A stretch of DNA of 38,523 nt. Source: a virus. The notes under the pieces are model-generated. The model ran no database searches and was not told where the DNA came from. It saw nothing but the letters and a program-made list of their open reading frames with translations. Position 1 is the stretch's first letter. The number at the start of each line of letters is the position of its first letter. This document shows positions 128 to 38,523 of this stretch, piece after piece. The position numbers and the translations under genes were made by a program. The stretch covers positions 1 through 38,523 of the IMG/VR virus record IMGVR_UViG_3300022743_000011; one strand, given 5' to 3'.

Positions 128-774
128 AAGCTTTCTTTAATGTTGCCAAGCAAGCCCAAATTTTCCGGCGTTTCTTCCGGCTTTTGCACGGCTAACCATT
201 CGCCAAAACCTTTAGCCAATTCAGGCGCTACAGGTTGCGAATTATCCGGCTTGGCTGTAGGGGCTAATTGATCGGTCAATTGTTGGGTAGAAGGCTTGCC
301 CGCGCCGCCTTCTGGCGTTGCCGGATTTGCCTTCAACCATGCGCCGAAACCGGCTTTCAAAGAATCCAAATTGACACTTTGAACACCGGACAAAACACGA
401 TTAACATAACTGTTAGTTCGTGGCCCCCAATTATCCCGATTGGTTCCGCCGTGATATTCTCCAATTGCTGCGCTAACATTTCCGCCGTTTCGCTTCAATG
501 AATCTTTAAGCAACAAACCGGCAACTTCTGCGGCGTTTTCCGGGCTTAAATACGGATCAATGCCGTAGTTTTTAATTGCGGCTTGTCGCGTTTGCGGAAT
601 GATTTGAAAAGGGGTGCGCGCGCCAGCTTCCGAAACTTGATCGGCGTTCGAACGTTCGCCTTTAGTTAAGATTGAAACTAGCAATCCATCCGGCAAATTA
701 AGCTTGCTTTCGGTTGCTGCGGCTAAATCAGTCCAAAAAGGATCGTTATATTTAACAGGCGTAGAATCGGCCAT
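1..774 (-). CDS. Ejection protein with lytic transglycosylase domain, N-terminal part (continues at 38396)
   Basis: This is the first 258 codons of a gene that crosses the contig join; joined with 36273-38396 it encodes 965 residues. Residues about 8-130 form a lytic transglycosylase (SLT-like) domain: likely catalytic Glu40 in TKGERSNADQ, then ARTPFQIIPQTR, YGIDP and an EYHGGTNRDNWGPRTNSYV segment. Such virion proteins open peptidoglycan and form part of the DNA ejection channel (P22 gp16/gp7 and T7 gp16 type). After the domain a motif occurs twice: GFGAWLKANPATPE near residue 142 and GFGEWLAVQKPEETPE near residue 189. The ATG overlaps the TAA of the gene at 774-2111 (TAATG), so the two are probably translationally coupled. 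The enzymatic call is secure; the ejection role is inferred from neighbours. Confidence 0.85.
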   Translation of the reverse strand, partial: MADSTPVKYNDPFWTDLAAATESKLNLPDGLLVSILTKGERSNADQVSEAGARTPFQIIPQTRQAAIKNYGIDPYLSPENAAEVAGLLLKDSLKRNGGNVSAAIGEYHGGTNRDNWGPRTNSYVNRVLSGVQSVNLDSLKAGFGAWLKANPATPEGGAGKPSTQQLTDQLAPTAKPDNSQPVAPELAKGFGEWLAVQKPEETPENLGLLGNIKESFTGEHRQTATTQALPDWAGMPELNDLSIAGFKTGLGTMLSSPQ

Positions 775-2111
775 TACTTGCCCCCGGATTGCTTCAAATA
801 GTTAATCACTTGTTCGCGCGTTGCGCCGGGAAACTGCGCCAACAGCTTGTTAATTGTTCCGTCATTTACAACACCATAAACCGGATGTTGCATAACGAAA
901 GCACCGCCGCTTTGCGGAAGCTTGCCACTGCCCACAATCTTAGCTTGCGCGCGTTCTAAGGTTGTTCGAATCGTAGTAAGCGCAGTTTTGAAAGCTGCGG
1001 GCGATTGATCGCGGTCAAGACTTGCAACAGCCCGTTCAATTCGTGCACCTTCGGCATCGGACAAAGCGCCCATGCCTTTCATTTCTTTAGCTGCGGTTAA
1101 AAACTGTTGTGATTTCAACGTGTCTAACATTGCGTTGAAGTCTTTGTTATCAGTGCCCGGAACAGCGCCTAACATTTTGCCAATAGTTGAACCAACGCCG
1201 AAACTACTTTGCATAATAGGATGCTTCAAAATCCCATTAACAGTAGCAAGGCTGTTATTTACGGTATCAAGTTGGTTTTGCGTGTCGCTTTGCTGCGCAC
1301 CTAATTTAACTTGAAGTTCGCCGTTTAATTTGTCGCGTTCAAGCTGCAAGCGCCCTCGTTCGGTTTCGCTATTGGCTTGTTTAATTTGAATGTCTAGCGC
1401 GTCAATCTGGCCTTTAAGCTTCGTAGCTTCAATATCCGCAGCCGTCTTAGTGTTTTCAAGTTGCGTTTTAGTCGGTGCGTTCGCAGCTTCAACAGACTTA
1501 ATAAGCGCGTTCGATTCGGCAACCGAAGCATTTGCGTTACCTTCGGCAACTTTGGCCGGTTGAAGTTCTTGCGCGCGCTGTTGATCGCCCAACGTGCTAA
1601 ACGTAGTTGCAAACTTATCCGGCCCCATTACGGAAGACAACATTAGCGCCGTTGAAGTCTTCGCCGCGCCGGGGTTGAATTGAATAGTTTGCGCCAATGC
1701 GCGAAGCTTTCCGGCTTGTTGCGTGTTGCCGCCGTTTTCATAAGCTGCGGCCTTATCGTTCAACAATTGAACAGCAATATCCGGCTTACCGCTTTGAAGT
1801 GCGGCGTAAGCTTGCGTTGCATCCGAAAGCGTTGTTTGTTGTTGATCGGCGTTCAGTACGTCGAAAGAACGTTTGAAATGTTCGCTAAGTTGTGGATACT
1901 TGACCATAACGCTAGCGTAATCTTGCGCCGTTGCGTTTTTATTATTCGCCAAGTTAGCTAAATCCGCTTGCATTTGCTGTTGTGCGGCTTGCTGTTGCTT
2001 CATTTGCTGAATTTGCAACATGCCTTGTTGCATTTGCAAACCGCTTTGAAGCCCGGAAACGGCGTTTTCAATTGGCGATTTTACGTCAATGTTATAGTTA
2101 ATCGGTTCCAT
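774..2111 (-). CDS. Ejection/internal virion protein (P22 gp20-like position), 445 aa
   Basis: The chosen ATG at 2111 (MEPINYNIDV) has GGAAAGGG just upstream; a longer frame to 2177 would overlap the previous gene. Near residue 30 there is a Gln/Met-rich heptad-like stretch (GLQMQQGMLQIQQMKQQQ). Residues about 200-300 are strongly helical and coiled-coil like. No enzymatic motif is seen. Position between the 214-aa ejection protein and the transglycosylase protein, and a length close to P22 gp20 (471 aa), suggest a second ejection protein that lines the DNA channel. Sequence alone does not prove homology. Confidence 0.65.
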   Translation of the reverse strand: MEPINYNIDVKSPIENAVSGLQSGLQMQQGMLQIQQMKQQQAAQQQMQADLANLANNKNATAQDYASVMVKYPQLSEHFKRSFDVLNADQQQTTLSDATQAYAALQSGKPDIAVQLLNDKAAAYENGGNTQQAGKLRALAQTIQFNPGAAKTSTALMLSSVMGPDKFATTFSTLGDQQRAQELQPAKVAEGNANASVAESNALIKSVEAANAPTKTQLENTKTAADIEATKLKGQIDALDIQIKQANSETERGRLQLERDKLNGELQVKLGAQQSDTQNQLDTVNNSLATVNGILKHPIMQSSFGVGSTIGKMLGAVPGTDNKDFNAMLDTLKSQQFLTAAKEMKGMGALSDAEGARIERAVASLDRDQSPAAFKTALTTIRTTLERAQAKIVGSGKLPQSGGAFVMQHPVYGVVNDGTINKLLAQFPGATREQVINYLKQSGGK

Positions 2112-2113
2112 AA

Positions 2114-2758
2114 TTAAAACCCTTTCCAAGCGCCCATTCCGTACAGCGTAGCCGGTAAGCTTCCGATTGTACTCCACATAGAAGCATCGGCTTTACCGGC
2201 TGCAAGTGCGTTGCCAGCTTGCGCCGCGCCAATTTGATTAAGTTGATTCGAAATTGCATTTGCCGATTGCATACCGGCGTTGCCTGTACCGGCTGCGGCA
2301 TTCTGGCCTAGCGAAGTAATGCCGCCAAGATTCGTAAATTGCTGTTGAATCATGTTGTTTAGCAATTGTGGGCTAAACTGCGCAAGCGCGCCTTGAACAT
2401 TACCGCCGCGAAGCCCGCCAGTTGCGGAAGCATTTTGAAGAATTGCGTTTTGGCCTTGTGCATTAAGTTCGTTAAATTGCGAACTATTTTTAATGCCGTT
2501 AATTGCGGCTTGCTGCGCATCATTGCCGTTCAATCCTAAAATGTTTTGCTGCGCAGTTAAAGACGAATTGCCCGCATTTACATACGGCGCAAGCAATTCT
2601 TTAATTGCGTTAAATTGGCGCTGTTGTTCCGCAATAGAAGCTTGCGAAGATTGCGTTTGCGCATTAGAAGCGGTTTCCGCCGCGTCTTTTTGCGCGCTAG
2701 AAGTCATGTAACCGCCAATGACGGCACCGCCAACAATTGCAGTAGCTACGGCAGACAT
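2114..2758 (-). CDS. Ejection/DNA transfer protein (P22 gp7-like), 214 aa
   Basis: Start at 2758 (MSAVATAIVGG) is preceded by GGAAAGGA; a longer frame to 2776 lacks this spacing. The N-terminus is a glycine-rich hydrophobic segment (about residues 3-20), then a helical QQRQFNAIKELLAPYVNAG segment, and a region with GGLRGGNVQGALAQFSPQLL near residue 120. That last motif is typical of the DNA-transfer/ejection protein family found beside P22-like tail genes. Length matches P22 gp7 (about 229 aa). It lies two bases upstream of the 445-aa gene and follows the SET protein by four bases. Confidence 0.7.
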   Translation of the reverse strand: MSAVATAIVGGAVIGGYMTSSAQKDAAETASNAQTQSSQASIAEQQRQFNAIKELLAPYVNAGNSSLTAQQNILGLNGNDAQQAAINGIKNSSQFNELNAQGQNAILQNASATGGLRGGNVQGALAQFSPQLLNNMIQQQFTNLGGITSLGQNAAAGTGNAGMQSANAISNQLNQIGAAQAGNALAAGKADASMWSTIGSLPATLYGMGAWKGF

Positions 2759-2762
2759 AGAA

Positions 2763-3614
2763 TTATTCCTTTCCAATTTGCAACGTTAATTGCAAAGCTT
2801 CACGATAATTAATCGTAATTTCTTCGCCATCTTCGCCGCCCTTGCAACCTTGAATATTGCGCGTTGCTACTAACGCAATATCACCTTCATTCATACGAAC
2901 CATTTTAGCGTTATGGCTTACGGAATGATTCGTAAAACGCCCGGCTATAGTTCGAAAGCCGTTTATTCTAGCAGGGGCGATAAGTTCGCCTTCTGCAATG
3001 TCTGCCGTTGCGAACAAGCCGCGCCCTTGAATGCTTGAATCTGCAACTTTAATCTTAAAACCGCCATAAGGCAGTTCGATTAAATCGGTTTCATTGTGCG
3101 CTTGTTCTTTTGCTTGTTCTTCTGTAAAACCAAATTCGTTCAACAGTTGCAAATAATCTTGCTTATCAACTTCGCCTTTAAAGTTGGCAATTGCTTTTTT
3201 CTGTTTCGCATCTTGCAACCATCCATCGCTTTTAGTAATTAAAGCGGCTTCAAGTTTTTCAACATCCGTTTCATCGGTTTGATAAATATTCAACCAAACC
3301 ATATCTTCTTTAATATAGCCGATTTTACGCCCCGGCTTACCAACGAAGATTAAAGGCGCTTTAAGTTCGCTTGTGCTACCGTCTTCATTCAAAACAGTAA
3401 CGCAACCTTTCAACATAACATTTAAATGTTCAAAGTTTTGATAATGTCCAACGGCGAAAGTATCGGCAGGAATGGCAACTTCACGAATATAAATACCGGG
3501 GCCGAAACGATGAATAACAGGGCATGAAACTTGCTGCAATTGCAACATTGCCTTTTCAAGTTCATCAACCCTGTTAGAAAAAGTTAAAGCTGAATTTTCG
3601 CGTTTGGCCAACAT
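2763..3614 (-). CDS. Cupin-SET domain fusion protein (putative lysine methyltransferase), 283 aa
   Basis: The ATG at 3614 (MLAKRENSAL) has AAAAGGA ten bases upstream; the TTG at 3623 sits too close to that site. Residues about 35-125 look like a cupin-type beta barrel (IYIREVAIPADTF, FEHLNVMLKGCVTV). Residues about 185-275 carry SET-domain hallmarks: GRGLFATADIAEGE, then RFTNHSVSHNAKM (the NHS-type AdoMet/pseudoknot motif), then GEEITINYREAL. SET proteins transfer methyl groups from AdoMet to protein lysines. Placed between tail and ejection genes, it may modify a virion protein or act after ejection, but the substrate is unknown. Domain assignment is confident; activity is untested. Confidence 0.8.
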   Translation of the reverse strand: MLAKRENSALTFSNRVDELEKAMLQLQQVSCPVIHRFGPGIYIREVAIPADTFAVGHYQNFEHLNVMLKGCVTVLNEDGSTSELKAPLIFVGKPGRKIGYIKEDMVWLNIYQTDETDVEKLEAALITKSDGWLQDAKQKKAIANFKGEVDKQDYLQLLNEFGFTEEQAKEQAHNETDLIELPYGGFKIKVADSSIQGRGLFATADIAEGELIAPARINGFRTIAGRFTNHSVSHNAKMVRMNEGDIALVATRNIQGCKGGEDGEEITINYREALQLTLQIGKE

Positions 3615-3688
3615 TCGAAGCAAATCCTTTTTGAAGTTGCTAGCCCCGCTGGCCGGGCGATAACTCAGCTTTAAAGCAAATTGCCCAC

Positions 3689-3718
3689 AGTATAACGCAC
3701 CGGGGCTAATTTTGTTAA
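3689..3718 (-). promoter_or_regulatory. Candidate sigma70-like promoter upstream of the SET/ejection genes
   Basis: Read on the minus strand: TTAACA at 3718-3713, an 18-base spacer, TATACT at 3694-3689. It sits in the 100-bp gap before the cupin-SET gene. One copy of the dispersed GCCCACA motif (3683-3690) abuts the -10 box. An inverted repeat CGGGGCTA/TAGCCCCG (3701-3708 and 3641-3648) brackets the -10 region and could be an operator. Spacing and -10 are good; function is inferred. Confidence 0.45.
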
Positions 3719-4050
3719 GTGATTTCGCGGCCTGTTGCGCTAATCGTTAGCGAAGTTGCGGCACCTGCAATCGTAGAAATAAAACCGCTTGCTTCCAAAG
3801 CTTGCCCGATAAGTTCGGGACAATTATAAGTTTCATTTGCCGCAATAGACTTAGAAGACAAAACGCAATTTGAAGCATTCGCCGCACCAGCAGAAGGCAC
3901 AAGATAAACGCTAATCGTTACAGGTGCGCCAGTAGTATTTGTAACCGTGAATTTGTCAATAACGGTACGGCAATTAACAGCCGTATATTGCGTAGTTTGT
4001 ACGGCTTCGGCTTGCTTGCGCGGGATGATGTTTCGAACAGTAATTGCCAT
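3715..4050 (-). CDS. Small beta-rich virion structural protein, 111 aa
   Basis: A compact protein beginning MAITVRNIIPRKQAEAVQTT, followed by alternating hydrophobic and small residues (IDKFTVTNTTGAPVTISVYL) that predict a beta sandwich. Proteins of this layout recur in podovirus and siphovirus structural clusters, next to tail fibre or head genes, and are usually annotated only as structural. No enzymatic residues are visible. It follows the needle/fibre-like gene at 4062 by 11 bases. The exact role (decoration, fibre attachment) is not determinable here. Confidence 0.6.
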   Translation of the reverse strand: MAITVRNIIPRKQAEAVQTTQYTAVNCRTVIDKFTVTNTTGAPVTISVYLVPSAGAANASNCVLSSKSIAANETYNCPELIGQALEASGFISTIAGAATSLTISATGREIT

Positions 4051-4836: not shown

Positions 4837-6252
4837 TCAGTTCCTTAGCTGTTCTAATCTGGCTTCTAACTTGGCAACGGAAATATGCGCTTCCGAAGTT
4901 CCCCGGAATTTTTGAATTCGCCAATTCTTCATGTTGCCTTGTTGCAACCAATTTAAACGAACATCGCGCCGCCCTTGACGGCCTGCCGTGCGCGGCCTTT
5001 CAACCGACCATGTTTCGCCGTCAGTGCTGTAACTTGTCCAAATTGTAGGATTGCTACCAAGTTCAAAATTTCCGCTTAAAGCAATCAATTCTAATTCGTG
5101 AAAAATAACGCCTTCGGCTTCGTTATAAACAATAAGCGTTCCGAATTCCCATCCATTAACAGCGCCGTAATGATGCGAAATGTTATCTACAAAATAACCT
5201 AGTTTAGTTGTTGTCGGATCGCCGCTAATCCATTTGTCATAACACCAAACTAAGTTTCTTGCGCGATACTTGCCAGTTCCGACAATTGAAGACGTTAAAA
5301 CAAACCAAACAGGTTCTTCAAGAATAGTTGTTGCAGCCGAATCATAAACTAAAGTTTGATCGGGCAAATGAACATATAAAAGCGCGTGATTCTTGTCAAT
5401 GCGCGATTCAAGAATTGCGGAAGAAAGTTCTTCTTCGCTGTAGTTTCTTAAAATTGTTTCAATTTCGCGCGTAGAAATTGGCGTTGAAGAACCGTTAATT
5501 CCGAACCAAACCGCAGGCGGTTCATTGCGCCCGCCGCCCAAAAATGCAACGCCATTATATCCGTTCATATAGAAGGAAGCCACGGCATAAGTTCCAATTG
5601 CGCCGCGCATGATTTGCGCGCCCGGAACACGTTGAAACGGAAACAGATTGCCACCGATATTATCAAAAACTTCGATAGTAAAACGGCCTACGGCGTAAGC
5701 TTCATTTCTAAGCTTGAACAAAGCTTTTACCGGATCGGGGTCAGCTTCCGCACTTCCATATTTCAGCGGATTAACCGAAGTCGGATCGTTCAATTCTGTA
5801 ACTACTAACGAAGTTCCGTCAGTAGTCATAAAATAACCGTCAATCCAAATAAAATCTATTACGGTTCCTAAATCAGAATCCGTAACTTGGGTTAATGCGC
5901 TTCCGTTCCAATAAAAGAAATTTCCATTAGAACAAACCGCCAAACGATCAAATGAATAATCAAAAGTTACAGGCGTATCAACCCCGCCAACATCGCCAAG
6001 CGTTGTAACTGTTCCATCGGAAGCAACCGAAACCAGCTTGCTACCCATTACGCGATAACAAACGCCGTTCCAATTTATGCCGCCACGATCAACACCGGGG
6101 CCGGTTGCAAATTCCGAAATTCCATCGGCAGGGCGAAGGTATCCCGTAGAAATGCCTTGCTTTTTAGGAACAGGCATTAAATTACGCGGATAAGACGAAC
6201 GAAAATCCGCCGAACTATCAACGTAAATACCGTTTAGAATTGGAATTTGCAT
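4837..6252 (-). CDS. P22 gp10-like tail accessory / packaged-DNA stabilisation protein, 471 aa
   Basis: The start MQIPILNGIYVDSSADFRSS, with YPRNLMPVPKK soon after, is characteristic of the P22 gp10 family. The rest is beta-propeller-like with repeated aromatic and Gly motifs (SYDFDRLAVCSNGNFFYWNG style). Its length of 471 is essentially that of P22 gp10 (472). In P22, gp10 forms a hexamer below the gp4 ring that seals packaged DNA and carries the tailspikes and needle. The gp4-like gene upstream and the needle-like gene downstream support this. There is no clear Shine-Dalgarno; the upstream gap holds a copy of the GCCCACAA motif at 6262. Confidence 0.85.
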   Translation of the reverse strand: MQIPILNGIYVDSSADFRSSYPRNLMPVPKKQGISTGYLRPADGISEFATGPGVDRGGINWNGVCYRVMGSKLVSVASDGTVTTLGDVGGVDTPVTFDYSFDRLAVCSNGNFFYWNGSALTQVTDSDLGTVIDFIWIDGYFMTTDGTSLVVTELNDPTSVNPLKYGSAEADPDPVKALFKLRNEAYAVGRFTIEVFDNIGGNLFPFQRVPGAQIMRGAIGTYAVASFYMNGYNGVAFLGGGRNEPPAVWFGINGSSTPISTREIETILRNYSEEELSSAILESRIDKNHALLYVHLPDQTLVYDSAATTILEEPVWFVLTSSIVGTGKYRARNLVWCYDKWISGDPTTTKLGYFVDNISHHYGAVNGWEFGTLIVYNEAEGVIFHELELIALSGNFELGSNPTIWTSYSTDGETWSVERPRTAGRQGRRDVRLNWLQQGNMKNWRIQKFRGTSEAHISVAKLEARLEQLRN

Positions 6253-7566: not shown

Positions 7567-7929
7567 TTATTGCTTGCCGCCAGAAGCGGGCGCAGCGCCG
7601 CCCCAAGCCGCAGCCGGGGCCGAACCTTCACCAGTGCCAGAAGCGGGCGCAGCGCCCTTCTTGCCGGTTGCTGCGGGCTTGGCGGCTTGGCCTTCCAGTT
7701 GCGCAGCGTGAATGGCGTTCGCGGCCTGTTCGGCATCGTAGGCTTCGCGGGCTTCGGTAGTAGTCAAATGCCAGCCTTCGGCAAGCGCAGCTTCTACCGC
7801 GTCTTCATCGTTGGCATCAATAATGCAAAAATCGAATTTGCCGCCGTGCATTTCGTGTTCGCCGGGGCACTTATAAAACATAGTGTCATTCGGCAAAACT
7901 TTTTCTTCGGGCTTTTCATTGCGGGCCAT
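7567..7929 (-). CDS. Hypothetical small head-region protein, 120 aa
   Basis: Residues about 15-70 are folded and acidic (CPGEHEMHGGKFDFCIIDAN, then EAALAEGWHLTTTEAREAYD). The tail from about residue 85 is Ala/Gly/Pro low complexity. It lies between coat and gp4-like genes, where head-associated small proteins are usual. No family function is recognised. The C-terminal low complexity produces long spurious frames on the other strand. Confidence 0.6.
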   Translation of the reverse strand: MARNEKPEEKVLPNDTMFYKCPGEHEMHGGKFDFCIIDANDEDAVEAALAEGWHLTTTEAREAYDAEQAANAIHAAQLEGQAAKPAATGKKGAAPASGTGEGSAPAAAWGGAAPASGGKQ

Positions 7930-7956
7930 TTTTCAAACCTTTCTTCAAGATCAAAG

Positions 7957-7983
7957 GAAGAAGGGGCGACCGAAGCCGCCCCT
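7957..7983 (-). terminator. Hairpin terminator/attenuator just after the coat gene
   Basis: On the minus strand the RNA forms a nine-pair stem (7983-7975 with 7970-7962, one G-U pair) closed by a UUCG tetraloop, then UUCUUCCUUU. It lies seven bases beyond the coat stop codon. A leaky terminator here would raise coat mRNA relative to downstream tail genes, as is known for major capsid genes of other phages. Confidence 0.6.
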
Positions 7984-7989
7984 AACTTA

Positions 7990-9258
7990 TTACGGCTGGC
8001 TAAACAGGATAACCCCGGACATTTCCGGCTGTTTATTCACGACACCGAACAGCGTATCAAGACGATATTTCGTCTTCATCGTATTAATGTCGTAGAACTT
8101 CTGCATAACCAGTTCAATACCTTGATCGGTACTGGCGCGCATAACGGCGGTTCCAGCATCGGTAGGCACGGCGTAGCGGCCCGGCAGAAGTTCGATAGCG
8201 TCTTTTTGCCAGAAGGGGTTAAAGTAACCCGCCGCAGTGTTCAGCCAAGTAATAGCCGCACCGTTGGCCGGGGCTGCGGTAACGTTTTGATATTCAAGTT
8301 CCGCATCGGTTGCACCAGTGCCCGAAATGATCGGGGGCGAAATTTGAACAACACCCGAACCGCCGCCGCCCGAAACAATCGCCGTAACGCGGAAGGTTTT
8401 AAGCTGGCCGGTATCTTGCTTCGTAATATGATGAACAGCATTAACGCCAGCAATCGTAAAGGCATCGCCAACTTTAACCGTACCGGAAGTAACGGCAATG
8501 GTCAAGTTTTGATAGCGGTTATCAACGTTGCTAACTTCGCCAGTGCCAGCCGTAGAAGTTGCCTTAGGGGTGTAATACTGGTTTGCGCCGTTTACAGTGA
8601 CGGTAACGCCGCCCGCAGCCGCAAGGCGGGGCGTGTAATCCATCTTGAACGTATCAAAGCTGGCGATAGTGCCCACAAAAGCCTTTTCGTAGGCCGTAAC
8701 CGGCTTGCCTTGCATCGTACCGCGCCCGGCAAGGTTAGAAGCCATGCCGTTATAATCGCGGGTAGAAAGCGCCATGTAACGATCAAAGGCTTGAACACCC
8801 TGTTCGTTAAAGATCGCTTCGGCCAATGCAACATCATCGAAGCCAGTTGCCGCAGTAGTGCGCTTAACAACAAGCGTACCTTGCATAGAAGCAACGGTAT
8901 TAACGGCAACGTTAATATCCGAAGCAAGCTTTTGCTTTGCAGCTTCGCCAAGGCGCTGTTCTTGCAGCGCATCGCGCAGTTCCTTCGAGGTCAAAGTCCA
9001 AGGAACAGACTTCGAATAACCCAACGAAGCGGGAACGCTAAGTTGAATGTAATCCTTAAAGTTCGAAGTCATATCCGTACCGTTGAACGATTGCGCAACG
9101 TAGGGTTGCGGGCGCCAAATCGTATCGGCGCTACGTTCCATTTCGGTAGCATTGGTGTTATACACCGAAACATTGCGCGACAACACTAAGGCATCTTGGA
9201 AGCCTTCAAGGATGTTTTCGAACGCAACCCGTTCTTCTTTGCTAAATGCGTTAGCCAT
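7990..9258 (-). CDS. Major capsid (coat) protein, P22 gp5-like, 422 aa
   Basis: Starts MANAFSKEERVAFENILEGF and has MERSADTIWRPQPYVAQSFN near residue 40, both hallmarks of the P22 coat family. A Gly/Thr/Val-rich insertion domain spans about residues 225-320 (the I-domain region), and the C-terminus ends in KTKYRLDTLFGVVNKQPEMS. P22 gp5 is 430 residues. It adopts the HK97 fold and builds the procapsid with scaffold. ATG is preceded by AAGGAAACATC. Scaffold lies upstream, and the terminator hairpin downstream supports high expression. Confidence 0.9.
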   Translation of the reverse strand: MANAFSKEERVAFENILEGFQDALVLSRNVSVYNTNATEMERSADTIWRPQPYVAQSFNGTDMTSNFKDYIQLSVPASLGYSKSVPWTLTSKELRDALQEQRLGEAAKQKLASDINVAVNTVASMQGTLVVKRTTAATGFDDVALAEAIFNEQGVQAFDRYMALSTRDYNGMASNLAGRGTMQGKPVTAYEKAFVGTIASFDTFKMDYTPRLAAAGGVTVTVNGANQYYTPKATSTAGTGEVSNVDNRYQNLTIAVTSGTVKVGDAFTIAGVNAVHHITKQDTGQLKTFRVTAIVSGGGGSGVVQISPPIISGTGATDAELEYQNVTAAPANGAAITWLNTAAGYFNPFWQKDAIELLPGRYAVPTDAGTAVMRASTDQGIELVMQKFYDINTMKTKYRLDTLFGVVNKQPEMSGVILFSQP

Positions 9259-24938: not shown

Positions 24939-25553
24939 ATGAAATTGTCTATCAAGTCTCGTTTTTCGGCTTCTATCCTATTTGAATTCGAAGCCGAAGA
25001 AAACAGCGTAAAAATTACGCTTGAAGCTGCGGTAAAAGCCCGCGCTAATCTTTACGGCGCTGATCTTCGCGGCGCTAATCTTTACGGCGCTTATCTTCGC
25101 GGCGCTGATCTTCGCGGCGCTGATCTTCGCGGCGCTGATCTTTACGGCGCTAATCTTTACGGCGCTTATCTTCGCGGCGCTGATCTTCGCGGCGCTGATC
25201 TTCGCGGCGCTAATCTTTACGGCGCTAATCTTTACGGCGCTGATCTTCGCGGCGCTGATCTTCGCGGCGCTTATCTTCGCGGCGCTGATCTTGACGGGGA
25301 AAAGCTTTCACAAACACCTTTGCAAGTAAATGGACTTAAATGGTTCGTTTTAATTAGCGATGGTTTCATGCGTATTGGTTGCCAACGTTATACGCATGAA
25401 GAATGGGCTAATTTCACCGATGAAGAAATTGTTAAAATGGATTTCGGCGCTTTGAAATTCTGGCGGCAATGGAAAACTTCGCTTGTCGCTATGTGTAGTG
25501 CCCACAAAAAGCAAACCGAAGTTCGAAAGGAAGAAAACAATGTTCAATCTTGA
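24939..25553 (+). CDS. Pentapeptide-repeat protein, 204 aa
   Basis: Residues 36-120 are 17 consecutive pentapeptides (ANLYG, ADLRG, AYLRG, ADLYG, ADLDG), which fold as a right-handed quadrilateral beta helix. The last ~85 residues (WFVLISDGFMRIGCQRYTHE, KFWRQWKTSLVAMCSAHKK) form a globular domain. Some pentapeptide proteins mimic DNA and inhibit gyrase, but this family's role is unknown. It has a GGAG Shine-Dalgarno (24927-24930) and a CTC at 24958, so two of the rare residual words lie at its start, suggesting recent acquisition or relaxed selection. Confidence 0.8.
   Translation: MKLSIKSRFSASILFEFEAEENSVKITLEAAVKARANLYGADLRGANLYGAYLRGADLRGADLRGADLYGANLYGAYLRGADLRGADLRGANLYGANLYGADLRGADLRGAYLRGADLDGEKLSQTPLQVNGLKWFVLISDGFMRIGCQRYTHEEWANFTDEEIVKMDFGALKFWRQWKTSLVAMCSAHKKQTEVRKEENNVQS
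25044..25298 (+). repeat. 17 tandem 15-bp repeats coding the pentapeptides
   Basis: Near-identical 15-mers such as GCTGATCTTCGCGGC with third- and second-position variants. Tandem units may change number by slippage. Confidence 0.9.
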
Positions 25554-26208
25554 CTTCAAAAACGCAAAGGTGCAAATCGTTTGGGCAACGCCGAACGCAG
25601 ATCAACTTATTGCCGATATGGCGCGCGTATCTGCGCCCGAAAACATCGGTAACAATCCTGTCAATTTGATTGGCTATCTAATCCGCGAGCGTCATTGGTC
25701 GCCGTTCGAAATGGTTAATATGTGCGTAGGCTTCGTAACTACGCGCGATATTGGGCGGCAAATTTTGCGGCACCAACTTAAACCGCAAGAATTTTCGCAA
25801 CGTTACGCCGATGTTCGCAAACTTGGCGGGCCGATTTTTCGCGAAGCACGTTTGCAAGACTTGAAGAACCGGCAAAATTCTTTTGAAACCGATAACGAAG
25901 AATTGGCGAATTGGTGGCTTGCAGCGCAGGCCGAAAACTGGAACAATGTCGTTCGTATCTATGACGAAGCATTGAAGCGCGGTATTGCAAAGGAAGTTGC
26001 GCGCGCAATCATGCCAGAAGGCAACACCCCTACGCTAATGTTCTTTAACGGATACATTCGCAACTGGCTTCACTTCTGCGAACTTCGAACAGGCAACGGA
26101 ACCCAAAAAGAATGTATCGAAGTAGCTAAAAGCGTGTATAATGAACTTCGCAAAGTTGTTCCGCATACATGCGAAGCATTCGAACGTTTTTACAAGGTGG
26201 AAGCATGA
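25540..26208 (+). CDS. thyX: Flavin-dependent thymidylate synthase ThyX, 222 aa
   Basis: ThyX signature ILRHQLKPQEFSQRY at residues 75-89, with SAPENIGNN near 31 and GNTPTLMFFNGYIRNW near 165. It makes dTMP from dUMP using FAD and methylene-THF. The usual RHR-x7-S reads RHQ-x6-S here: third residue Gln and one residue shorter. ATG at 25540 (GAAAGGAAG upstream) overlaps the pentapeptide gene by 14 bases. A rare GAG Glu codon is at 25687. Confidence 0.85.
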   Translation: MFNLDFKNAKVQIVWATPNADQLIADMARVSAPENIGNNPVNLIGYLIRERHWSPFEMVNMCVGFVTTRDIGRQILRHQLKPQEFSQRYADVRKLGGPIFREARLQDLKNRQNSFETDNEELANWWLAAQAENWNNVVRIYDEALKRGIAKEVARAIMPEGNTPTLMFFNGYIRNWLHFCELRTGNGTQKECIEVAKSVYNELRKVVPHTCEAFERFYKVEA

Positions 26209-26889: not shown

Positions 26890-26974
26890 GCCCGCATGGT
26901 GGAACAGGTAGACACAACAGACTTAAAATCTGTCGCTTTCGGGCGTATCGGTTCGAATCCGATTGCGGGCACCA
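26890..26974 (+). tRNA. tRNA-Leu(UAA), CCA encoded
   Basis: Acceptor GCCCGCA pairs with TGCGGGC, then A and encoded CCA. Anticodon stem ACAGA/TCTGT surrounds loop CTTAAAA (anticodon TAA); a long variable arm makes it class II. T-loop GTTCGAATC is standard. It reads UUA and UUG, Leu codons that replace CTC. It lies seven bases after the Sak4-like gene and 60 bases before the SSB-like gene. Confidence 0.93.
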
Positions 26975-36272: not shown

Positions 36273-38523
36273 TTACTTTCCGTTAGATTGGCGTTGATTT
36301 GCCGAACTTGCTTCGATTGCTTGAAGAATCCACCGTTCCCGATTAGACATTTCTTTAGGATTGCCAACAGCCCTAGCGAACTTCGTAAAAGGCTTCGAAT
36401 AAGCAAGTTTAAGCGCAGCTTTTTTAGTTTCACCTTTGGCAACCTGTTTAACAGTTTCAGCGAATTCCGGCGAAGAAATTAAAGCATCGGCGGCTTTTAA
36501 TGCGCTTGGCTTTCCTTTCGTCAGTGCCGAAGCAATGCTAGCAGAAATACCGGCCCCCGGCATACCTAGCGGCGTAGTAACGGCTTCAACTGCGGCACCG
36601 GCTACGGAACGTTTTGCCAAACTGTAGATATTGCCTAAAAGCGAATCCGCGCCTTTAAGTTCATCCGTAACAGCTTGAATGCGCCCGGTAGTAATTCGTT
36701 CTTTACTTGCTTGGCTAATGCCCTTTGCAACGCGGTACAAATCGCTAAGTTGTTTGCGGGCTGCGGGCGGAAGATTTGACATTAAAGCCGTATAGGCTTG
36801 TTTGTTTTTCAATAAACCTTCGTACCATTTAGCGTAAGAAGTAAAATTGATAGTTCCGTTGCGCGCATTCTTACCAAACGCCGTAGCTAATCCGCTAGCT
36901 ACGGTTTCTTGCCGCATGTTTTCAGGAATTAACTTTACAAGGTTTATAAACTTCGAAGTATCGCCGCTAGGCAGTGACTTAACAGCCCCGCTAAGATTGC
37001 CCACAATAGAGCCATCAATATTCTTCCCAAACAACGAAACAAGATCATCTTCCAAACCCTTTCGAACGGCAACGGCCTTTTGCGCAGAATCAAAAACAGT
37101 TTCCGCGCCGTGTTGCGCAACAACTGCGCGTTGATCGACTTTCAATTGCGATTCAAGACGCTTAATCAAACCTGAATCGGCATCTTTAAACGGCCCTTGG
37201 GCTTTGATGCGCGCCGCCGTCAAATCGCGCCGAACGTCATCTAGCAGAGCGTAAGAAGGTTGCTTGTATCCGGTAATAGCGCCTTCGGCATCGGTAATAG
37301 GTTTAGGCGAAAGCTTCGATTGAATCATGCGTTCAACAGAAGAAAGGTTTTGCTTACCGCCCAAATCTTCCACGCGTTGTTCAATAAACTTCAAAACAGT
37401 AGGCGCGGGCGCTTCGGCCTTTGCCGGGATCATTTCGCGCAATTGGCCGTAAAGCTTGTTTGCCTGTTGTTCAAGCTGTTGTTGCGTAGCTTGCAAACCT
37501 TGCTTAATTCCTTGGCTAACTTGCGCCAAATCATGCGAACCGCCAATTTCCGTAATTAAATCATCGGCACGTTTAGCAACTTGCGAAAGCCCTTGCATTT
37601 CTGCGGCCCGCGCTTCGCTACCCGGAATAGATTTAACGGCTTGTGCCAATTCGCGGTAAGCCTGATTTGTCGTTACATGGTCAGCTTGCAAATAATCTTG
37701 AATGCCCAAACGTTCGGCAGCTTGCACCGTCTTTGCATTCGGTGCGGCCTGTTCGGCTAAAACTTGCGTTGCCTTTTTTGAACCTAAGCCACCTTCGGCG
37801 GCAGTTTTCGCAGTTGCGGCCAAGTCTTGCGCCGTCATTTGTTCCACCGGGGCCGCAGCGCGGGCAACGGCAGGCGCAGCCGGTTCAACAGCAGCCGCAG
37901 GCGGGGCCATTTCCGGGGCTACAGGGCGCGCAGACGCAGCGGCAGGGGCTACCCTTTCGCCAGCAGCCATAGCGCCCGCATCGGCTGCGGCAGGGGCCGT
38001 TCCGGGCATGATGCGTTGAACCGCAGCCTTAACCGGATTGGCAACGGCTGTAGCAACGCGCCGGGTTGCGTTCAATACAGGCGGCACGATAGCGGCAGTA
38101 AGCCCGGCAATTGCTACTTCCTTTGGATCAAATGAACCGCCCGTTGCGGCTTGCGTACCTTCAATAACAGCTTGCGTACCGGCTGCGCCTGCAACCATGC
38201 CCGGCAAAGTTGCGGCACGGCCAGCCGGGGTAAATGCGGCAATTGCACCGCCAGCGCGCGGAATGTCCGACACTTGAAAGCCGGGCTTAATTGCGTATTC
38301 CTTGCCATCCATTGACGATTTAAGAACGAAGTTGCCTTTTTCGTCTTGCCGAACTTGAACGCCCGGATAGTTGGCTTGAATGATTTGCACGGTTTCTTGT
38401 GGGCTACTAAGCATAGTGCCCAAGCCAGTTTTAAAACCAGCAATTGACAAATCATTAAGTTCCGGCATACCGGCCCAATCCGGTAAAGCTTGCGTTGTCG
38501 CTGTTTGTCGGTGTTCGCCGGTA
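36273..38523 (-). CDS. Ejection protein with transglycosylase domain, C-terminal part (continues from position 1)
   Basis: This is the C-terminal 700-odd residues of the split 965-residue protein; bases 38397-38523 duplicate 1-127. The segment has a Gly/Ala-rich stretch, a long Ala/Pro-rich linker (about 38,030-37,830), and helical, probably coiled-coil regions rich in Gln, Ala and Glu. This fits a large internal virion protein that unfolds through the portal. An internal ATG at 38468 gives an apparently separate 731-residue frame, but it is the middle of the gene. The tailspike starts 10 bases downstream, so the two share a transcript. P22 gp16 is about 609 residues, so this is a longer relative or analogue with the enzyme domain fused on. 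Residual GAG words occur at 37009 and 37247. Confidence 0.8.
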   Translation of the reverse strand, partial: TGEHRQTATTQALPDWAGMPELNDLSIAGFKTGLGTMLSSPQETVQIIQANYPGVQVRQDEKGNFVLKSSMDGKEYAIKPGFQVSDIPRAGGAIAAFTPAGRAATLPGMVAGAAGTQAVIEGTQAATGGSFDPKEVAIAGLTAAIVPPVLNATRRVATAVANPVKAAVQRIMPGTAPAAADAGAMAAGERVAPAAASARPVAPEMAPPAAAVEPAAPAVARAAAPVEQMTAQDLAATAKTAAEGGLGSKKATQVLAEQAAPNAKTVQAAERLGIQDYLQADHVTTNQAYRELAQAVKSIPGSEARAAEMQGLSQVAKRADDLITEIGGSHDLAQVSQGIKQGLQATQQQLEQQANKLYGQLREMIPAKAEAPAPTVLKFIEQRVEDLGGKQNLSSVERMIQSKLSPKPITDAEGAITGYKQPSYALLDDVRRDLTAARIKAQGPFKDADSGLIKRLESQLKVDQRAVVAQHGAETVFDSAQKAVAVRKGLEDDLVSLFGKNIDGSIVGNLSGAVKSLPSGDTSKFINLVKLIPENMRQETVASGLATAFGKNARNGTINFTSYAKWYEGLLKNKQAYTALMSNLPPAARKQLSDLYRVAKGISQASKERITTGRIQAVTDELKGADSLLGNIYSLAKRSVAGAAVEAVTTPLGMPGAGISASIASALTKGKPSALKAADALISSPEFAETVKQVAKGETKKAALKLAYSKPFTKFARAVGNPKEMSNRERWILQAIEASSANQRQSNGK
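38397..38523. repeat. 127-bp terminal direct repeat, right copy
   Basis: Identical to bases 1-127. On the circle only one copy exists, within the gene for the large ejection protein. Confidence 0.95.

Follow-up and report, generated by a model that had tools for sequence, protein, structure and literature searches.

The window analysed here is the whole of a virus record (IMGVR_UViG_3300022743_000011; 38,523 nucleotides), which carries a P22-like virion gene cluster on its minus strand. The genes around the cupin-SET fusion are the following.

2763..3614, minus strand: cupin-SET fusion gene, 283 aa, with its ATG at 3614 and its end, stop included, at 2763
2114..2758, minus strand: P22 gp7-like ejection protein, immediately downstream of the fusion gene (PF25688, E 1.6e-12; phrog_598)
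774..2123, minus strand: P22 gp20-like ejection protein (phrog_2534, 6e-43)
3715..4050, minus strand: small protein of 111 aa between the hub genes and the fusion gene (phrog_20100, 1.8e-5)
4837..6252, minus strand: P22 gp10-like head-closure/tail hub (PF11134, 5.5e-33; phrog_578)

The cluster also contains a large terminase, a P22-type portal (PF16510), a scaffold protein, a coat protein, a gp4-like adaptor and a tail-fibre-like gene. The order is gp10-like hub, tail-fibre-like gene, 111-aa gene, cupin-SET, gp7-like and gp20-like; the original prediction had placed the gene between tail and ejection genes, which is true in the window and holds for most relatives. An alternative TTG start is possible at 3623. 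The protein is matched over its full length by phrog_34170 (2e-93) and the fusion is present in all 80 of the best 80 viral contigs, so the observation is real and far beyond chance.

The downstream gp7 gene starts with the ATG at 2758. The final codons of the cupin-SET gene contain the ribosome-binding sequence of gp7, AAAGGA; the two genes are thus probably translated together. On the other side, the gap of 100 bases that precedes the cupin-SET gene holds a sigma-70-like TTAACA-18-TATACT (window 3689-3718) and a GC-rich inverted repeat. As a candidate promoter this site (3718-3689) was rejected: the scan was near chance and the upstream region is unconserved in three relatives.

A cupin barrel joined to a minimal SET fold

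Three parts can be distinguished in the protein; L107 and L108 are two relatives described further below.

3279..3533, minus strand: cupin barrel, residues 28-112 (in structure comparison close to ppnP, Z 9.8, and to ectoine synthase, Z 9.6; homologous to phrog_12032 and phrog_24280)
3099..3263, minus strand: helical linker, residues 118-172 (secondary structure of the model; alignment of L107 and L108)
2790..3074, minus strand: SET domain, residues 181-275, lacking the SET-I insert (VIA-align matches to MLL1 and vSET)

The SET domain is recognised from sequence, with a Pfam SET score of 34.6 bits (E 2.8e-8) in the window protein at a curated cut-off of 22.4 bits, and SET (PF00856) is matched in all 54 aligned relatives. 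The cupin is weak by sequence, with Cupin_2 found in only 3 of the 54, but clear by structure. An AlphaFold2 model built with these 54 sequences is confident (pLDDT 94.9, pTM 0.89), and SET methyltransferases can be superposed on the C-terminal 95 residues of the model. In VIA-align comparisons the SET half matches MLL1 (7u5v; Z 10.6, 1.8 A over 79 residues, 35% identity) and PBCV-1 vSET (3kma; Z 9.5), and a profile of the relatives retrieves the same two enzymes among solved structures. The SET knot and the AdoMet pocket were judged through this superposition and through motif conservation. The earlier proposal of a likely SET methyltransferase-type domain joined to a cupin-type one thus agrees, at the level of predicted fold, with both the Pfam match and the model, in which residues 28-112 resemble cupins with Z up to 9.8. 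A predicted structure lacking a SET fold, which would have spoken against the proposal, is not what the model gave.

SET methyltransferases are best known from histone biology. With the SET lysine methyltransferases (PF00856; MLL1/KMT2A, PBCV-1 vSET) the phage protein shares the fold, motifs I, III and IV and the catalytic Tyr. In contrast to these enzymes, the phage domain is only about 95 aa long, lacks SET-I, YxG, pre-SET and post-SET, is fused to a cupin and lies in a phage virion cluster. The shared motifs, in general form GxG (I), NHxxxPN (III) and (G)EE(I/L)xxxY (IV), were followed through 103 SET copies (56 after removal of near-copies).

3018..3026, minus strand: motif I, GxG (G197, G199), predicted to bind AdoMet; invariant in 103 of 103
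2925..2930, minus strand: motif III, N229-H230 (GRF-T-NHS); N in 103 of 103, H in 102 of 103
2805..2822, minus strand: motif IV, E265...Y270 (EEITINY), with the catalytic Tyr; E in 103 of 103, Y in 102 of 103

Further, R221, T222 and R226 are retained in 102 of the copies. That catalytic and cofactor residues are essentially invariant points to selection on catalysis, and from the alignment both cofactor binding and catalysis look preserved.

The SET-I region usually shapes the substrate channel of SET enzymes. SET-I and the YxG motif II are common in histone-type SET methyltransferases, but the insert varies in length and a protein can belong to the SET superfamily without them. By these two features none of the 103 copies is of the histone type: all of them lack both the SET-I insert and the YxG motif that normally precedes it, and the spacing from GxG to N (G197-N229) is 32 in all 103, against 66 in MLL1 7u5v. 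With both missing, substrate recognition must differ from that of SET-I enzymes and could perhaps be achieved by PARI-x-G-x-RT, a segment specific to this family, or by the linker together with the cupin.

The same absence would fit a SET fold that has become a non-catalytic structural or AdoMet-sensing module. We find this quite improbable: a structural role needs neither the Tyr nor the NH motif, yet these are kept in 102 of 103 copies although overall identity with the window protein drops as low as about 30%.

Relatives and the P22 gene 14 slot

Many short-tailed phages have the fusion gene beside those for their injected proteins. Our collection of loci comprises 101 with the fused gene, 86 with the cupin only, one in which cupin and SET are encoded separately (L107) and one with SET only (L108). 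The cupin-only proteins extend no more than 22 residues beyond the cupin, and no SET was found anywhere in the DNA fetched for them. A gp7 profile matches the next gene in 86 of the 101 fused loci and in 69 of 87 cupin-only loci, where the 87 include the cupin of L107; some of the loci lacking a gp7 match are cut off by the contig edge or carry ejection genes that have diverged. The gp10 gene is found upstream in 67 of the 101 fused loci.

The P22 genes run 10, 26, 14, 7, 20, 16, and cupin-SET stands at the position of gp14; in T7 the corresponding place is that of gp13. Both P22 gp14 (DUF2824, PF11039) and T7 gp13 (PF11090) immediately precede the ejection gene of gp7/gp14 type. However, they are of different families and do not resemble cupin or SET in sequence: the window protein has no match to PF11039 or phrog_651, whereas P22 gp14 scores 179 bits.

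The cupin alone is found in this slot in Vibrio phages, Dickeya phage Amaethon, the T7-like Sphaerotilus phage R1 and a Glaciimonas prophage. The cupin-only proteins (phrog_12032, phrog_24280; among them BPP-1 Bbp23 and Vibrio phage VvAW1 gp04) have an N-terminal cupin homologous to that of the fusion but no SET, and VvAW1 gp04 and most of the others share the place before the ejection gene with cupin-SET. Bbp23 is located elsewhere, between terminase and head-tail adaptor genes. The cupin is therefore the widespread domain of the slot and not a rare add-on, and SET is a variable addition; as many phages have the cupin alone, it is the cupin that carries the slot's conserved role. In the window protein the region of the metal-binding motif HxH(x)3-4E(x)6G reads H57-x-Q59-x3-H63 (numbered from the ATG at 3614); the cupin-only relatives mostly have K-x-H at this position, and BPP-1 lacks these residues.

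PHROG names of the N-terminal domain and annotations of the cupin-only relatives would make the protein a short tail fibre or adhesin. In the traceable case, the cupin of Ralstonia phage phiAP1, the 'short tail fiber' annotation is without experimental validation (PMC8703784), which exposes as unsupported a label that is spread across many phage annotations. No receptor-binding fold was found in cupin-SET, and the window has separate tail-fibre genes. A tail fibre or adhesin is thus very improbable.

In L107, a Paraburkholderia ferrariae prophage (7665-9112), cupin and SET are two genes that overlap by ATGA, so the two halves look like a working pair. This pair adjoins a DnaB-like (replication) gene and an integrase, not ejection or virion genes, and its SET protein is extended at the C-terminus by about 95 aa. 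In L108 the SET-only gene comes immediately ahead of a gene cluster that includes a transglycosylase-bearing internal virion protein. In both, the SET domain is preceded by the later part of the linker although no cupin is fused to it. Single-sequence searches with L107 and L108 gave no SET-only relatives in viral contigs, and no SET match was found in plasmids.

On the cupin-domain tree, no fewer than three changes on well-supported branches are required to account for the fused state. Of the fused proteins, 44 rows make up a main clade, L166 falls within a cupin-only group, and L008, L104 and L105 are placed beside a cupin-only Vibrio phage. With L166 included, a single clade of fused cupins is rejected (p-AU 0.0043), in an alignment that has only 122 columns and several long-branched rows. 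This indicates that the pairing of cupin and SET was gained or lost repeatedly, in the same slot. The SET-domain tree is compatible with the odd copies forming one clade (p-AU 0.46) and cannot tell this from separate SET sources for the extra fusions.

The full-length family is already in databases, as phrog_34170 with no function assigned; what is new is the architecture and the location in which a minimal SET domain is found here. This family, Rhodoferax phage P26218 gp30 and Caudoviricetes ct1fd225 are full-length homologues in the same slot. Individual records have been given SET labels automatically, one of them reading 'pbcV-1 histone H3-lys 27 methyltransferase structure', and we found no characterisation of such homologues. 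To our knowledge, the methylation of phage proteins has received little attention; our open-access literature search gave no paper on a phage cupin-SET family or on the substrate of a phage SET enzyme.

Two other kinds of gene were noted beside the cupin. GNAT acetyltransferase genes adjoin cupin or cupin-SET in L078 (2371-2847), L023 (8650-9288), L011 (10090-10590), L172 (3436-3945) and L010 (BPP-1 bbp24); the call was made by Pfam in L078, L023, L011 and BPP-1, and by a profile built in this analysis in L172. With the small number of five phages, this may reflect a habit of placing protein-modifying enzymes at the slot. A fold shared by P22 gp14, T7 gp13 and GNAT, which would make this a transferase slot, was considered and dropped, as comparison of the very shallow profiles gave nothing.

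The second is a conserved protein encoded directly upstream of cupin(-SET) in L166 (2432-2848) and L159 (3505-3978), which has no Pfam or PHROG match. Its C-terminal NxN...LxxAGxF pattern is reminiscent of T7 gp13 or GNAT proteins, and the AlphaFold model of the L166 protein is poor (pLDDT 40.5).

Possible targets of the SET domain

A virion component is the most economical target, because the gene adjoins the ejection genes and is probably translated together with gp7. We searched for a conserved substrate lysine in gp7, gp10, gp20-like, coat and gp4-like proteins and small neighbours, and none was convincing; gp20-like, gp4-like and others were represented by too few sequences. In gp7 and gp10 of fused phages no lysine reaches 45% conservation, and the lysine content of these two proteins is about the same in fused and cupin-only phages. 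In the coat protein the best position is 74% Lys and otherwise Arg. From these alignments, the simplest assembly model, with one conserved lysine on gp7 or gp10, appears weakened, while a lysine at variable positions, the less sampled gp20-/gp16-like proteins and a host protein all stay compatible as targets.

Our best reading, to which we give a probability of roughly 45%, is that cupin-SET is a virion-morphogenesis protein in the P22 gene 14 slot whose SET domain methylates a virion component during assembly. The cupin half, conserved and probably structural, would dock on a tail-hub or ejection component. The SET half, judging from its fold and invariant active site, would be a working AdoMet-dependent lysine methyltransferase. 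Its target would be a virion protein, with an ejection protein as the most plausible one, methylated while it is made and loaded. That the SET-only gene of L108 also precedes an internal virion protein cluster counts for this reading. Against it count the lysines of gp7, gp10 and the coat protein described above, the distance of the L107 pair from ejection genes and the absence of SET-I. Further, since many phages keep the cupin without SET, methylation must be dispensable for the basic job of the slot.

The place beside the ejection genes in most relatives would equally suit a protein that is itself packaged and ejected, so that SET methylates a host protein after injection. A host substrate fits with the unconserved lysines of the neighbouring virion proteins, and an optional SET that is recurrently gained and lost is what is expected of a host-directed function. 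On the other hand, P22 gp14 and T7 gp13, which occupy the same place, are not among the three ejected proteins, the compact folded 283-aa protein of the model would have to unfold for passage through the portal, and we found no packaging signal. Altogether we regard ejection of the enzyme as unlikely.

The protein could also be a late-expressed methyltransferase whose target, from host or phage, has nothing to do with the virion, the position of its gene being only an operon of convenience. Here the L107 pair, standing outside virion genes, is joined by the SET protein of the unrelated Menderavirus (Stenotrophomonas phages Mendera and Ps15). Like the cupin-SET protein it has a phage-encoded SET domain, and it is annotated as a SET protein, but it has about 103 aa and no cupin and is found among small genes of unknown function, not virion genes. 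Such an operon of convenience is rather unlikely given that in most relatives the gene stays by gp7 across divergent phages and that the cupin-only genes keep the same slot.

Returning to methylation during assembly, a more specific form can be put forward, and we hold it as doubtful: a dedicated lysine methylation step, in which a compact SET, repeatedly paired with a cupin at the entry of the ejection operon, would methylate the injected proteins, or the hub through which these travel, and in this way control how the injected proteins are loaded or refold in the host envelope. Whatever the target, a common environmental phage family has a strictly conserved SET active site tied to one virion-operon position. 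With isolated phages that carry the gene (Rhodoferax phage P26218, Pseudoalteromonas phage PH1) and natural cupin-only relatives, the role of a phage SET domain is directly testable.

Some observations concern the remainder of the window. Among the early genes a pentapeptide-repeat protein (PF00805; 24873-25553) adjoins a ThyX thymidylate synthase (25543-26208), and a tRNA-Leu gene with anticodon TAA (26890-26974) lies between early genes. At one end of the record a transglycosylase-like frame (1-802) runs off position 1, and a phrog_6704 protein (36273-38468) is found at the other. The ejection/virion cluster is apparently continuous across the record ends, which suggests a circularly permuted, near-complete genome.
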